From Thermomicrobiales bacterium (GTDB taxonomy: Bacteria; Chloroflexota; Chloroflexia; Thermomicrobiales; CADCWN01), in NCBI GenBank assembly GCA_030446685.1, contig JAUJMV010000012.1:86631-150630 (forward strand): 64,000 bases of DNA, in the 5' to 3' direction. The notes under the pieces were generated by a model. It saw only the letters and a list, made by a program, of their open reading frames with translations, was not told the origin of the DNA and ran no database searches. The translations under genes and the position numbers were made by a program. Positions 9,032 to 48,847 of this stretch are shown here, piece after piece (position 1 is the first letter of the stretch; each line of letters opens with the position of its first letter).

Positions 9032-10243
9032 ATGATCCGGCGACGATTCGTCCGCCGCCCGCTCTGCCTCTTCCTGGCGCTGTACCTGCTGCCGGCGCTG
9101 GCCGGCTGCGCCCAGCTCGCGCCGGTGCGAGTCGATGCCTCCGGCACGCCGCTCGCCACGGCCGAGGCGCGGCCCCAGCAGCGCCCGACGCCGGTCCCAA
9201 CCGTCCCCGGCCCGCCCGCGCCGACGCCGATCGCGCCGATCGCTGACCTCGTGCCGGGACGGACGATCGCCTTCGTCTCCGACCGCGGCGGGCGGATCGA
9301 TCTCTGGCTGCGCGACATCGACCCGGTGGCGCCGCGGCTCCGGCGCCTGACCAACGACGCCGCGATCGAGATGTTCCCGATCTGGTCGCCCGACGGGACG
9401 ATGCTGGCCTACGTGGTCGAGGACGAGCACGAGGTGCGCAACCTCTGGGTCCTCGATCTGCGGACCGGCCGCCACCGGCAACTGACGCGCGAGGAGCCGC
9501 CCTTCAACGTGCGCCGTGCGGTCTGGCTGCGCGGCGGGCGGGCGCTGCTGTACGACACCGGCAAGCTCTTCGATCGGCGGCCCGAACTACGCGTCGTCAC
9601 GAGCGAGGGCAGCCCGCTCGCCCCCCTGGTCCCGGCGGGCGACAACGTGATCTTCGACTGGTCGAGCGACGGCGAGACGGTGATCTGCGCCATCGCCCCG
9701 CCCCTCGGCGAGCCGAAGATCGTCGTGGCGGAGGCGACGCCCGGCACGACGCTGCGCCCTGCGGCCGGCGACCCGGTCGGCTTCGCGGTCGAGTTGTCGC
9801 CCGACGGGCGGTACGCCACGTTCAGCGCGCCGCCGCTGAGCGACGAGCAGAGCGCTTGGATCCTGGAGGTCGCGACGGGGAAGACGTGGGAGTTGAACAA
9901 GGAGGTCAAGGGGCGGCGCTACGACCACGATTTTGCCTGGTCGCCCGACGGTCGCCTGGCCTTTGCCCACAGCTCCGCCGGGGTCACGGACGGGGAGGGG
10001 CGGCTGACGTTGGTGGTCTCGCGCCAGCGTCTAACCTACGGCAGCGCCGACGCCGCGCCGCAGTGGTCGCCCAACTCGGGCCAGCCGCCCCTGCCTCGGC
10101 GCCGACGTGCCTGGTCGCCGGCCTGGCTGCCGAGCCCGCCGCGCGTGGCGGAGGCGACGATCGCCGACGTGGCGAATCCTCGATGTCGGAGCGGTACGCC
10201 ACTGACGGTCGCGCCGCCGCTGAGCGGACCAAGCCTGGTCTGA
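9032..10243 (+). CDS. Beta-propeller (TolB/PD40-like) lipoprotein with damaged C-terminus
   Basis: A secreted lipoprotein: basic start, hydrophobic stretch and lipobox (LLPALAGC), then a Thr/Pro linker. The body holds repeated PD40 blades: RTIAFVSDRGGRIDLWLRD, MFPIWSPDGTMLAYVVED, VELSPDGRYATFSAPPLS, HDFAWSPDGRLAFAHSS and ADAAPQWSPNSG. ATG 9032 is the only start that gives a signal peptide. After about residue 340 the sequence loses blade character. A better ending of the same gene (SPDGRWIAYLSDAQ, DIWIISADPPF, NWSPAWLP) lies at 10275-10605 in another frame, so the end shown here is probably the product of a tail duplication or assembly error. Confidence 0.75.
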   Translation: MIRRRFVRRPLCLFLALYLLPALAGCAQLAPVRVDASGTPLATAEARPQQRPTPVPTVPGPPAPTPIAPIADLVPGRTIAFVSDRGGRIDLWLRDIDPVAPRLRRLTNDAAIEMFPIWSPDGTMLAYVVEDEHEVRNLWVLDLRTGRHRQLTREEPPFNVRRAVWLRGGRALLYDTGKLFDRRPELRVVTSEGSPLAPLVPAGDNVIFDWSSDGETVICAIAPPLGEPKIVVAEATPGTTLRPAAGDPVGFAVELSPDGRYATFSAPPLSDEQSAWILEVATGKTWELNKEVKGRRYDHDFAWSPDGRLAFAHSSAGVTDGEGRLTLVVSRQRLTYGSADAAPQWSPNSGQPPLPRRRRAWSPAWLPSPPRVAEATIADVANPRCRSGTPLTVAPPLSGPSLV

Positions 10244-10407
10244 CGCGACTGGCAGTGCTCAACCGCGGCCTCGGCGACGCACGATTTCGCCTGGTCGCCC
10301 GACGGCCGCCTGGTCGCCCGACGGGCGCGGCGATCGCCTACCGGCCTCATCCGACGCGCAGGTCGCGCGCCGACGGCAGCGCCGACGCCGCGCCGCAGTG
10401 GTCGCCC
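10038..10407. repeat. 35-base perfect direct repeat marking the tail duplication
   Basis: The 35 bases at 10038-10072 (starting ACGGCAGCGCCGACG) recur exactly at 10373-10407, an offset of 335. They encode the blade motif GSADAAPQWSP in both copies. The surrounding sequence is only partly similar, as expected for a duplication that has since decayed or been misassembled. Confidence 0.85.
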
Positions 10408-10605
10408 GATGGTCGCTGGATCGCCTATCTCTCCGACGCGCAGGAGCCGAACCCGGCCGAGTCGGATATCTGGATCATCAGCGCCGACCCTCCCTTCGGG
10501 GAGAAATACAACCTGACCGGCGCGACGGAGGGGCAGCCGTCGAACGGCAACAACTGGTCGCCGGCCTGGCTGCCGCAGCCGCGGGAGGCCGCGCGTGGCG
10601 GTTGA
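10275..10605 (+). pseudogene. Second copy of the beta-propeller gene tail
   Basis: In a different frame from the upstream lipoprotein gene, this stretch encodes blade sequence ADAAPQWSPDGRWIAYLSDA, then SDIWIISADPPFGEKYNLTG and NNWSPAWLPQPRE. It starts with a near repeat of the upstream blade HDFAWSPDGRL. It looks like the genuine C-terminus, displaced by a partial duplication. Its stop overlaps the GTG start of thiL by 11 bases, the arrangement expected if this is the original gene end. Confidence 0.6.
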
Positions 10606-11638
10606 GCGGCCGGGCACCGTCGCGGCGCTCGGCGAGTTCGCGCTGATCGACCGGCTCGCCGCGGTCCTGGCCGAGGCCGGCGCGGCGGCTGCGCCCGAGC
10701 TGCTCGGCATCGGCGACGACGCGGCGGTCTGGACCCCCACGCCCGGCGCCCGCGGCGTGATCACCACCGACAGCCTGATCGCCGGGGTCCATTTCCGCCT
10801 CGACTGGACCGGCTGGCGCGACCTGGGCCACAAGGCGCTGGCGGTCAACCTGAGCGATGTCGCGGCGATGGGCGCGCGGCCCCGCCTGGCGGTCGTCTCG
10901 CTCGGGCTGACCGGCGGGGAGGCGGTGGCCGATCTCCTCGACCTCTACCGCGGCCTCGGCGCGCTCGCCGCCCGGCACGGGGCCGTCGTCGCCGGGGGCG
11001 ACGTGGTCGCCTCGCCCGACCGCCTCGGCCTCCACGTCACGGTCGTCGGTGAGAGCTGGCCCGACGCCGGGGGGCGGCTGCTGACGCGCGACGGGGCGCG
11101 GCCCGGCGATCTGGTGGCGGTCAGCGGGCCGCTCGGCCTCGCCGCCGCCGGCCTGCGCCTGCTGCTCGACGGGGGGCGGCCGGCCGCGGCCGGGGACGGC
11201 GCGCTGCTGGCCGCGCACCACCGCCCGGAGCCGCGCGTCGCCTACGGGCGGGCGCTGATCGAGGCCGGGGCGAGCGCGGCGATCGATCTGAGCGACGGGC
11301 TGTGGGGCGACCTCGCCCGGCTCTGCGCGCGCAGCGGCGTCGGCGCGCGGATCGACGCGGCGGCGCTGCCGGTCCCGGACCGCGTGCGCGATCGCTTCCC
11401 GGACGCCTGGCTCGACCTGGCGGCGCGCGGCGGCGAGGACTACGAACTCCTCTTCACCCTCCCCCCCGCCGCGCTCGAACCGCTACGCGCGCGCTGCGCC
11501 GCCGCCGATCTCCCCGCCCCCGCGGTGATCGGCGCGATCCGCCCCGCGCCGGCGTCCGGCGCGCCGATCGTCCTGCGCCGGCCGGACGGGGCGGAGGAGC
11601 CGGTGGTCGGCGGGGCGTTCGACCACTTCGGGACGTAG
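10595..11638 (+). CDS. thiL: Thiamine-monophosphate kinase
   Basis: Phosphorylates thiamine monophosphate to thiamine diphosphate with ATP, the last step of cofactor synthesis; 347 residues, normal for ThiL. Family motifs in order: GIGDDAAVW (about 38), TTDSLIAGVHFRLDW, AVNLSDVAAMGARP, AGGDVV, IDLSDGLWGDL and GGEDYELLF. The GTG start at 10595 overlaps the upstream gene tail by 11 bases. No other thiamine gene is in the window. The last about 150 bases of the gene are found again in degenerate form at 12750-12885. Confidence 0.95.
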   Translation: MAVERPGTVAALGEFALIDRLAAVLAEAGAAAAPELLGIGDDAAVWTPTPGARGVITTDSLIAGVHFRLDWTGWRDLGHKALAVNLSDVAAMGARPRLAVVSLGLTGGEAVADLLDLYRGLGALAARHGAVVAGGDVVASPDRLGLHVTVVGESWPDAGGRLLTRDGARPGDLVAVSGPLGLAAAGLRLLLDGGRPAAAGDGALLAAHHRPEPRVAYGRALIEAGASAAIDLSDGLWGDLARLCARSGVGARIDAAALPVPDRVRDRFPDAWLDLAARGGEDYELLFTLPPAALEPLRARCAAADLPAPAVIGAIRPAPASGAPIVLRRPDGAEEPVVGGAFDHFGT

Positions 11639-11967
11639 GCGTGCGCCGACCGCCAGCGGGGCTTCCGAGGGCGCTGTGTTTTGCCGGTCGCGGCGGGCCG
11701 GTGACTGAAGTCGCGCCCCGCTCGGCAGGGAAGGGACCACGACGAGGAGGGATGCCGTGCTATCTCGTCTGCACCCGCGCGTGAAGGTTCCACGTTGTGT
11801 GCCCGCTCGTCTGCCTGTCCGGCACACTGAAGCCTGGACGCTTTGCGGGAGAGGATAAGCGGCGGGTCGGGTGGTGTCGGTGATAGCCGACGGCGCCGGC
11901 CCGTTGAGACCCTCAACCCGAATTTCGTTCCGTTGGTCGTCGAGGGTCAGGTATCGTTGCAGGGCAT
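11639..11967. other. Gene-free stretch between thiL and the GNAT chimera
   Basis: Visibly less GC-rich than its surroundings in its second half. The only small frame with a good Shine-Dalgarno (AGGAGGG before ATG 11752) encodes ten residues and then stops. I see no convincing promoter or hairpin. Confidence 0.4.
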
Positions 11968-12611
11968 ATGCAGTATCAAACACTTGAGGATGTGCTTGAC
12001 GCTAATGCGCAAGGCCGCCTCCGGGAGTGGCTCATCGAGTACCTGCAGCACGAAGGGGGCAACCCCGGCCTTGCCAAGCATATTCTCGAGCGACCCGCCG
12101 CCATGCTCCGCCTCGCGGAGTACCCGATTGGCGGACTACAGCGTCTGATTGGACCCGAAGACGGTATGCTCTGGCAGGAAGATGGGACTACCTGGGAGCG
12201 TAGGGTGACGGGGTTTCTCCGTAATAGCCGTCGCCCACGGACGGCGTACAACCTCGCCATCGTCCGCCGCGGCGATGCCGCGGCGATCGGCTGGATCGGC
12301 GCCGGCCGCCCGCGCGACAGCGTCCTCGGGGACCAGGATTTCGGCTACGCGCTCAATCGGCAGTCCTGGGGCTGTGGCTATGCGACCGAAGCGCTCCGAG
12401 CGTTGGTCGCGTACCTCTTCGAGCACGGCGGCGCACGGAAGATTTCCGGCGAGTGTGTCGGGCCAACCCTGCTTCCGCACGGGTGATGGAAAAAGCCGGG
12501 CTGCAGCTCGAAGCCCGCTGGCAAGTACCCGCCCCCGCCAGCGGCCAGCCTGAGGAACGATTGCGCTACGCGATCGTGCGTGGAGAGTGGTTGGCGCAGC
12601 GTAACCCATGA
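11968..12611 (+). CDS. Chimera: uncharacterised N-terminal domain joined to a truncated GNAT acetyltransferase, with a frameshift
   Basis: Residues 1-85 (QTLEDVLDANAQGRLREW, EYPIGGLQRLIGPEDGM, TTWERRVTGFL) resemble no enzyme I can name. From about residue 95 the sequence becomes the C-terminal part of a RimJ/RimL-type acetyltransferase: AYNLAIVRRGDAAAIGWIGA, DFGYALNRQSWGCGYATEAL. The GNAT N-terminus is missing. The frame stops at 12486, but a one-base change near 12460 restores NPASARVMEKAGLQLEARWQ up to a stop at 12611, the normal GNAT ending. Base composition is lower in GC than the neighbours, and the segment is bounded by two copies of the thiL 3' end, which suggests acquisition. Confidence 0.6.
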
Positions 12612-12749
12612 CGCAGAGGAAGTTGACAACGAATCTCCCCCGATCCCACCCCCACCGATGAACTGCCTGGGTGGGCATGCCCGCCACGCGCCCGCTGCGG
12701 CGGATCGTGTTGCCGGCTCATGCCGCGGCCAGGTGGGGGAGCGGCGGTG

Positions 12750-12885
12750 CGGTCGCTGCGCCACCGCCGATCTCCACGCCCCGGCCGCCCCGCGCCCGCA
12801 CCCGGCCCGGCGATCGCGCTGCGCCGGCCGGACGGGACAGGGGAGCCGGTGGTCGGTGGGGCGTTCGACCACTTTGGGGCGTAGG
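12750..12885 (+). pseudogene. Second, degenerate copy of the thiL 3' end
   Basis: Translates in one frame to IALRRPDGTGEPVVGGAFDHF plus a stop, nearly identical to the ThiL C-terminus (VLRRPDGAEEPVVGGAFDHF). Nucleotide similarity starts at the ADLPAP coding region and continues through the stop codon and the first following bases. It lies 1.25 kb downstream of the real thiL end and brackets the GNAT chimera. Confidence 0.8.
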
Positions 12886-12969
12886 GCGTTCCCGAACAAC
12901 CGGCGCCGCCGCGAGCATTGTGCGGAGGCACCGCCAACCCGGTTAGGCACCCGTGTCCCAGGAACCTCT

Positions 12970-13139: not shown

Positions 13140-13678
13140 ATGGGTGAGGCGCGGGCGGTGACGGGGCGCGGCCGGCGCCGGCGCTCGATTTCATCAGCCA
13201 TAGCCCCGAGCAGACGCGGCGGGTCGGGCGGCGGCTGGGGCAGCACGCCCGCGGCGGGGATCTATTCCTGCTGAGCGGCACCTTCGGCGCGGGGAAGACG
13301 CTGCTGACGCAGGGGCTCGCGGCGGGGCTGGGGGTCGCCGAGAAGGTGAACAGCCCCAGCTTCACGCTGGTCAACGAGTACGCGGGGCGCGACGCCGCGG
13401 GCCGACCGGTGCGGCTCTACCACGTCGATCTCTACCGCCTGGAGACCGCCGCCGACGTCGCCTCGGTCGGCCTCGACGAGTACCTGGCCGATCCGGACGG
13501 CGTCTGCGCGATCGAGTGGCCGGAGCGGATCGTCCCGCCGCCGACCGACGACGCGCTGCTGATCGCGCTCGACCCGGTGAGCGAGACGAAGCGCCGCCTG
13601 CGGCTGATCCCCTACGGCGCGCGACCGGCGACCCTGCTGGGCGAGGTCAAGGCGGAGGCGTTCGGTGTCGACCGCTGA
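13140..13678 (+). CDS. tsaE: tRNA threonylcarbamoyladenosine biosynthesis ATPase TsaE (frameshift near the start)
   Basis: P-loop ATPase that works with TsaB and TsaD in making t6A at position 37 of ANN-decoding tRNAs. Visible: N-terminal LDFISHSPEQTRRVGRRLG, Walker A SGTFGAGKTLLTQGLA, NSPSFTLVNEY, the conserved YHVDLYRLE and CAIEWPER. The frame carrying these has a stop at 13145 and no usable start before the P-loop. ATG 13140 in the neighbouring frame gives MGEARAVTGRG, so a one-base error around 13160-13185 in a GCCGGCGCCGGCGC stretch is likely. It overlaps tsaB by 14 bases. Confidence 0.85.
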
Positions 13679-47461: not shown

Positions 47462-48847
47462 TTACCGGCCGCTGCCCGGCCGCCGCCCGGTGTCCCGGCG
47501 TTCCCGACCGCGCTCCTCCACCTCGACCCGCTCCCGGCGCACGGTGTCGGTGATCTGCTCCCGCTCGACCACGCGCTCCTTGTCGAGCACCACCTCGCCG
47601 GTGACGACCGCTTCCTTCTCGACGACAGCCTCCTCGCCGCGCACGGGGACGCTGATCGTGCCGCCCTGGAAGACCTCGTCGCCAGGCCGGACCGGACGAT
47701 CGGCGATGTCGCGCTCCTGGACGTGGACCTCCTCGTGGGCCAGCTCGACCGGGACGGAGACCTGCTCCTCGACCACCCGCTTGCGGATCTCGACCGCGCC
47801 CAGCTCCGCCTCGCGCTTCGCCACCTCCACGCGCTCCTCGGCGACCGGGACGACGATCTGATCCTCGCTCGCCCGGCCGCGGGCCGGCGCCGGCGCTGGG
47901 GCCGACGGCCGCGCGCCGGTGTCCCGCGGCTGCACGCTCTCGCGAACCTGGCCCACGTCTGCCAGCGTTTGTTGCCCCTGGCCGGCACGCACCTCGGGGA
48001 TGGGCTGCGCCTGCCGTGCGCCCGCTCTGGGGACGGCGGGAGGCGCGGGCGCGGGCTGTTGCCGGGCCGCGGGTTGGCGCGCGGGCGCCGGCTGCGTGTG
48101 CCGCGTGCCCTCTTCGACTTCGACGCGCTCCCGGCGCACGGTGTCGGTGATCAGCTCCCGGTCGACCACCTGGTCCTTGTCGAGCACCACCTCGCCGGTG
48201 ATCACCGCCTCCTTCTCGACGACGACCTCCTCACCCAGCACCGGGACGCGGATTGTGCCCTCCTGGAAGAGTTGGTCGCCGGGGCGCGCCGGGCGGTCGG
48301 TGATGTCGCGCGCCTCGATATGCACCTCCTCGCGCATCACCTCGACCGGGACCGTCCGCTGCTCCTCCACGACCCGCTTGCGGACCAGCACCGCCCCCAA
48401 CTCGGTCTCGCGCTTCGCGACCTCGAGGCGCTCCTCGGCGACCGGGACGACGATCTCGTCGTCGGTGGCCCAGGCCGCTGGTGGGCGGGTGGGTTGCTCC
48501 CGCCGGGCATCCCCGATGACCACCGCGTCCTCGTCCGCGGCCGCGAGCGGGGCGCCGCCGCGCGTCGCGATCTGCCGGGTCTCGTCCTCGGCGCGCTCGT
48601 CGTCGACGCCGTGGAACGCGGCACGGTCGAATGGCTGTGCCCCGGCCAGTCGCGACCCCGGCTGGCGCAGATGGACCGCCGCCCCGGTGGCGTTGTCGAT
48701 CGCGCTCGCCGGGATGAGGAACTCCTCCGAGCCGCGGCGGACGACGATCTCACTGACCTCGCGGGTCTCTCGGTCCACGATGACGTGGGTGACGTGGCCG
48801 ACCTCGCCGTCCGGGGCCATGACGCGCGCGTCCCGTTCGATCTTCAT
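47462..48847 (-). CDS. PRC-barrel protein with two DUF2382 (YsnF/AvaK) domains
   Basis: A 461-residue soluble protein. The PRC barrel is at about 1-70 (MAPDGEVGHVTHVIVDRETR, VSEIVVRRGSEEFLIPASAI). Then two copies of DUF2382: DEIVVPVAEERLEVAKRETE to LITDTVRRERVEVEEG, and DQIVVPVAEERVEVAKREAE to QITDTVRRERVEVEERG, joined by a Pro/Ala/Gln linker. The copies are about 75 percent alike, so the domain was duplicated in tandem. Such proteins occur in stress-responsive sets, but the role is unknown. It is directly downstream of the DUF1002 gene, 63 bases away. Confidence 0.9.
   Translation of the reverse strand: MKIERDARVMAPDGEVGHVTHVIVDRETREVSEIVVRRGSEEFLIPASAIDNATGAAVHLRQPGSRLAGAQPFDRAAFHGVDDERAEDETRQIATRGGAPLAAADEDAVVIGDARREQPTRPPAAWATDDEIVVPVAEERLEVAKRETELGAVLVRKRVVEEQRTVPVEVMREEVHIEARDITDRPARPGDQLFQEGTIRVPVLGEEVVVEKEAVITGEVVLDKDQVVDRELITDTVRRERVEVEEGTRHTQPAPARQPAARQQPAPAPPAVPRAGARQAQPIPEVRAGQGQQTLADVGQVRESVQPRDTGARPSAPAPAPARGRASEDQIVVPVAEERVEVAKREAELGAVEIRKRVVEEQVSVPVELAHEEVHVQERDIADRPVRPGDEVFQGGTISVPVRGEEAVVEKEAVVTGEVVLDKERVVEREQITDTVRRERVEVEERGRERRDTGRRPGSGR

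Follow-up and report, generated by a model that had tools for sequence, protein, structure and literature searches.

The last part of thiL, the gene for thiamine-monophosphate kinase, occurs a second time downstream of the gene as a decayed copy that is joined, at a short stretch of microhomology, to the end of a dispersed intergenic repeat. The best explanation of this arrangement, which we regard as probable, is that microhomology long ago mediated a partial duplication of the thiL tail next to the dispersed repeat, the spacer that separates thiL from tsaE being in decay. The thiL tail relic is real but ordinary, and the segment looks like a decaying, mostly non-coding spacer, shaped by the usual wear of genomes and not by a mobile element. 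Coordinates without a contig name refer to the window, i.e., the whole stretch of 64,000 nt that was analysed (scaffold C33:86631-150630, in a genome of 7.04 Mb and 111 contigs), and the features are collected in Table 1.

Table 1. Features of the window from thiL to tsaE (positions in the window).
Feature	Position	Strand	Remarks
thiL (thiamine-monophosphate kinase), intact	10595-11638	+	347-aa ORF; AIRS and AIRS_C domains
thiL tail, copy 1	11492-11639	+	last ~148 nt of thiL
Fragment of interspersed repeat	11686-11731		GTGACTGAAGTCGC-like sequence; matches in many contigs
Chimeric ORF	11968-12486	+	172 aa; 5' orphan part and GNAT
5' part of chimeric ORF	11968-12231	+	88 aa; no significant homologue found
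GNAT (Acetyltransf_3) remnant	12202-12610	+	N-terminal part missing; frameshifted near 12460
Dispersed intergenic repeat	12679-12768		looser alignment from 12634; other copies or parts at C56, C49, C25 and C86
Junction microhomology	12754-12768	+	identical to repeat end in C56 and C86; 14/15 nt match thiL 11492-11506
thiL tail, copy 2, decayed	12754-12885	+	10- and 6-nt deletions, frame lost
tsaE (open frame)	13148-13675	+	TsaE domain; first gene past the segment

The thiL sequence shares 75% identity with its counterpart in a genome of the same family (G001) and 47-66% among long matches in genomes of the same order. Comparison of the window with itself returned two matching pairs at the gene end, 11539-11639 with 12785-12885 (87% over 101 nt, ungapped) and 11487-11523 with 12749-12785 (86% over 37 nt), and a gapped alignment of the two tails extended from 11492 to just beyond the stop codon. 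The local score of the tail repeat was 149, whereas none of 300 dinucleotide shuffles scored above 39; the preliminary description, which placed a repeat of the thiL end 1.25 kb downstream, was right in its coordinates, and the repeat lies far above chance. When each 300-nt stretch of the window was compared with the 1.5 kb downstream of it, the thiL tail score was topped by one of the 146 other stretches (278, near 47.6 kb, where a separate tandem repeat lies), and the third-ranked score was 65. Across the genome, strong matches to the tail were confined to two places (E 2e-72 and 1e-31, the next being 7e-5), with no third strong copy among the best 40 of 681 candidates scored.

Copy 2 has lost 10 nt at one place and 6 nt at another relative to copy 1, and of its 16 substitutions 15 lie within thiL. 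Its reading frame is broken because of the 10 and 6 nt deleted. The substitutions inside thiL are distributed over codon positions 1, 2 and 3 as 6/3/6, or as 5/3/6 when base 12763 is assigned to the dispersed repeat. Copy 2 has no evident function and appears to behave like a drifting relic, accumulating deletions as well as substitutions regardless of codon position. A functional copy accompanied by an unconstrained one, the combination expected of a partial duplication, was thus found at this locus, as copy 2 is frame-broken and shows the 6/3/6 distribution.

The left boundary of copy 2 coincides with a repeat that is present elsewhere in the same genome. The window stretch 12679-12768 is 86% identical to a copy on contig C56, with a looser alignment over 12634-12772, and the end of the repeat, CGCTGCGCCACCGCC, matches an internal part of thiL at 14 of 15 positions. 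At the single mismatch the window, C56 and C86 all have A and thiL copy 1 has G. The first 15 nt of the apparent thiL copy belong equally to the repeat, with the join inside this shared stretch. The same short match at the junction, 14/15 nt and identical in C56 and C86, is what a microhomology-mediated duplication is expected to leave. On the right, where copy 2 ends at about 12886-12897, no clear second microhomology was detected, and the alignment fades past about 12897.

A sequence of 20 nt, GCGGTCGCTGCGCCACCGCC, which ends at window position 12768, is present in both C56 and C86, and beyond it these two contigs have just two letters in common. The part of the repeat next to the join (12727-12768) recurs only in C56 and C86; the copies in C49 and C25 stop short of the join. 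The repeat end was located at C86:15577-15638 (L254), at C56:2350-2414 and at window 12712-12768, and the three sequences diverge within a few nucleotides. It is less likely that the dispersed repeat was cut off at 12768, as the C86 copy ends at the same place; judging from the compared copies, the repeat more likely ends naturally there. The C56 copy possesses inverted arms of 12 nt at 92%, which were not reported in the window copy. In C56 a compound dispersed repeat occupies L241:2279-2800; among the best 40 of 299 candidates, it matched C102, C97, C49, C66 and C17 over 80-306 nt and other places over shorter lengths.

The duplication that we favour would have started from DNA downstream of thiL which held the dispersed intergenic repeat, whose end CGCTGCGCCACCGCC resembled the internal part of thiL. 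An illegitimate, microhomology-mediated recombination or a template switch would then have joined a copy of the last ~130 nt of thiL to the repeat end, a microhomology join being proposed because the last 15 nt of the repeat match thiL 11492-11506 at 14 of 15 positions. Junction microhomologies longer than 10 bp at spontaneous rearrangements, duplications included, are reported in PMC3411829. The join may represent one end of a tandem duplication with a unit of about 1.26 kb, the second copy of which was otherwise lost; thiL would have stayed intact throughout, while copy 2 subsequently gathered deletions and substitutions. That such a recombination took place, when it did so, and that the remainder of the second unit was lost are all inferred. 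Among the points against this explanation are the right boundary, which lacks a clear microhomology, and the fact that a full tandem duplication predicts more of the second unit than is seen.

The DNA between the two tails contains the remains of other sequences. Near its left end lies the fragment of an interspersed repeat (Table 1); most of its matches in the genome are short and weak, and elsewhere they are often paired in opposite orientation, about 150-180 nt apart. Further on, the 172-aa ORF matches Acetyltransf_3 at residues 82-163 (E 1.5e-13), and the GNAT sequence resumes in another frame from about 12460, with a stop at about 12610. The presence of an orphan N-terminus, a GNAT part and a frameshift therefore identifies the ORF as a broken chimera, in which the remnants of two unrelated pieces have been fused and frameshifted. 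This agrees with the GNAT chimera announced in the preliminary description, with the domain restricted to residues 82-163 and the frame broken.

Searches with the N-terminal part of the ORF gave no match in Pfam, NCBIfam or PHROGs, nor in Pfam when residues 1-73 were given alone. The best E value of the first 73 aa in 60 relatives was 0.008, and none of 399 other Chloroflexota genomes had a match at E 0.001. Among plasmids, 23 Rhizobium records were returned at E 0.1 or worse with 27% identity, and none of 5 pattern stretches in viral contigs was confirmed. The GNAT part has its best relatives at 38-46% identity; in viral contigs 47 pattern stretches were returned and none was confirmed, and the best solved structure was a bleomycin acetyltransferase (E 0.001 over 36 residues). 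The whole 172-aa ORF had no plasmid or phage match at 1e-5.

The composition of the segment is below the usual, which is not by itself proof of foreign DNA. The GC content of 11640-12753 is 66.7% against a mean of 72.5%, in accordance with the lower GC noted in the preliminary description, and it falls at the 4.4th percentile of 1360 equally long windows taken from 800 kb of the genome. GC dips to 62.4% at 11750-12249. The composition check proposed at the outset thus gave a low GC on one side and an unremarkable trinucleotide profile on the other, with 12.6% of windows deviating at least as much from the mean. Between thiL and the 1200 nt that follow it, GC drops by 0.116 here; in 97 other thiL loci whose downstream sequence was at least 1200 nt long, the drop averages 0.026 and reaches 0.118 at most. 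GC3 of the 5' part of the ORF is 66%, compared with 93-96% in five neighbouring genes, and together with the low GC this leaves room for imported DNA. The term "foreign" applied to the segment was only half right, as nothing in the order is closely related to the broken ORF but the fragments near both ends of the segment are repeats that also occur elsewhere in the genome.

The interval between thiL and tsaE is variable among the loci read. In the window, tsaE is followed by tsaB, rimI and tsaD, these last three named by their ORFs and synteny. G001, the only genome of the same family found, is syntenic with the window through thiL, its contig ending 69 nt past the thiL match; its tsaE-tsaB-rimI-tsaD genes are also syntenic and lie inside a different contig from thiL, with other DNA upstream, where an ORF on the other strand was named peptidase-like from its reading. 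The 60 nt that follow thiL in G001 were compared with the flanks of the two window tails, and 37% and 52% of 500 shuffles did as well, neither flank being matched beyond chance. In other Chloroflexota loci tsaE often comes directly after thiL. Within the Thermomicrobiales, an ORF read as amidase-like stands between the two genes in L046 and L061, other ORFs occupy this position in L050, and in the MAGs L039 and L040 the next gene after thiL is an ORF on the other strand read as phosphatase-like.

Tail relics are uncommon in the genome, and that of thiL is not unique. A survey of 602 putative genes over 800 kb gave 20 with a match to their tail within 4 kb, an approximate count as genes were set by their GC3 signature from stop to stop. 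The second tail copy lay inside another putative ORF in 13 of the 20 cases and outside in 7, thiL included. Relics longer than 100 nt outside ORFs were those of thiL (147 nt, 78%), C25:221211-221594 (213 nt, 75%) and C25:600953-602146 (132 nt, 70%).

Other repeats were recorded along the same scaffold. The PD40 (TolB-like) gene upstream of thiL (9726-10600) has been partly duplicated close to its 3' end, and the duplication has decayed, with the frame broken and repeats of 38 nt at 97%, 335 nt apart, and of 39 nt at 92%, 353 nt apart; the same 3' end is single and intact in G001 and is interrupted here by about 360 nt of partly repeated sequence. The strongest signal in the self-comparison of the window was a 381-nt direct repeat at 47510-48487 (82% identity, copies 597 nt apart). 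Near the start of scaffold C33 (L184 13824-19766) many direct repeats of 65-92% occur in shuffled order within 6 kb, around an N gap.

One of the two interpretations offered in the preliminary description was the remnant of an integrative element that had duplicated the 3' end of its target. According to this reading, which we consider unlikely, the segment is the remnant of a site-specific element inserted at the thiL 3' end, whose own copy restored the gene while the displaced native tail decays, the dispersed repeat being the element end. The geometry is appropriate, as the 3' end of the target is duplicated around the insert, with an intact tail at the gene body and a displaced one at the far end, the insert is lower in GC, and its ORF has no close relatives. 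The join could also be an element end because the abutting repeat ends there in other copies too, three genomic copies in all. Against this stands, first, the integrase record: among the PF00589 (tyrosine integrase) matches listed for the genome (25, of which 23 above the cut-off) none falls in or next to the segment or anywhere in the window, in line with the earlier remark that no integrase is visible. The sole match on the scaffold of the window, C33:180576-181082, is ~81 kb off. Integrase pieces do occur at the end of contig C56, about 2 kb from its copy of the dispersed repeat. Secondly, a search for other insertions at thiL, suggested in the same description, was negative: none of 104 other usable thiL loci (109 given, 5 being without a match, a stop or 300 nt downstream; several contigs counted twice, once per collection) had a comparable tail repeat, two of them showing short tail matches of 25 and 37 nt. 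Thirdly, the thiL tail had a single match in 72,556 plasmid records, covering 38 of its 148 nt. At about 148 nt, a shared core would also be long for site-specific integration. With no tyrosine integrase in the window, no parallel at the other thiL loci examined and a native repeat at copy 2, the element interpretation is not supported by the main tests, and the partial tandem duplication mentioned as its alternative fits better than an element remnant.

A single-crossover or one-sided homologous integration of a fragment or circle carrying a thiL tail, broken genes and the repeat would dispense with an integrase, and we judge it improbable as well. Such an event would yield duplicated ends of the kind seen here, and it would agree with a middle ORF that has no close relative in the order and whose 5' part was absent from the 399 Chloroflexota genomes searched. 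However, copy 2 bears no sign of a functional foreign thiL tail, given its 6/3/6 substitutions and two frame-breaking gaps, and the insert ends, on its far side, in a repeat present elsewhere in the same genome.

A misassembly that fused two strains or two loci at the thiL tail seems very improbable: the assembly is scaffolded and has N runs elsewhere, one of which ends at the base before the first base of the window, but the window itself has zero N runs, the longest exact word common to both tails is 18 nt, which is short for a graph-based false join, and copy 2 is a relic, not the working gene of another strain. Equally remote is the conjecture of a small non-autonomous element, dependent on a recombinase encoded elsewhere for its mobility and using the 3' ends of thiL genes in this little-sampled lineage, whose last trace the two tails would delimit; the 20-nt repeat end would then be the core site, and the cargo would be the orphan N-terminal domain joined to GNAT.

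Short dispersed intergenic repeats of the REP-like type are a known class. The repeat at the thiL join resembles them in being short, intergenic and present in several copies, with the 12-nt arms in the C56 copy, and differs from them in that few copies were found and the arms were not reported in the window copy. The genomic islands located at gene 3' ends (SGI1 at trmE, PMC8409611; islands that restore tRNA or tmRNA genes, PMC4383910), share with the present locus a gene 3' end that occurs twice around a compositionally different segment. In contrast to these islands, the window contains no tyrosine integrase, the thiL loci examined offer no parallel, and a native dispersed repeat lies at the displaced tail. 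The spontaneous duplications and deletions mediated by microhomology (PMC3411829) are alike in having a join at a direct match of more than 10 nt and a second copy of a neighbouring stretch, whereas the thiL case is old, its copy has decayed, and the microhomology is visible at one boundary only. A gene-tail duplication resembling an attachment site can also have another origin, when microhomology joins the tail to a dispersed repeat, and the DNA abutting the displaced tail helps to tell one from the other.
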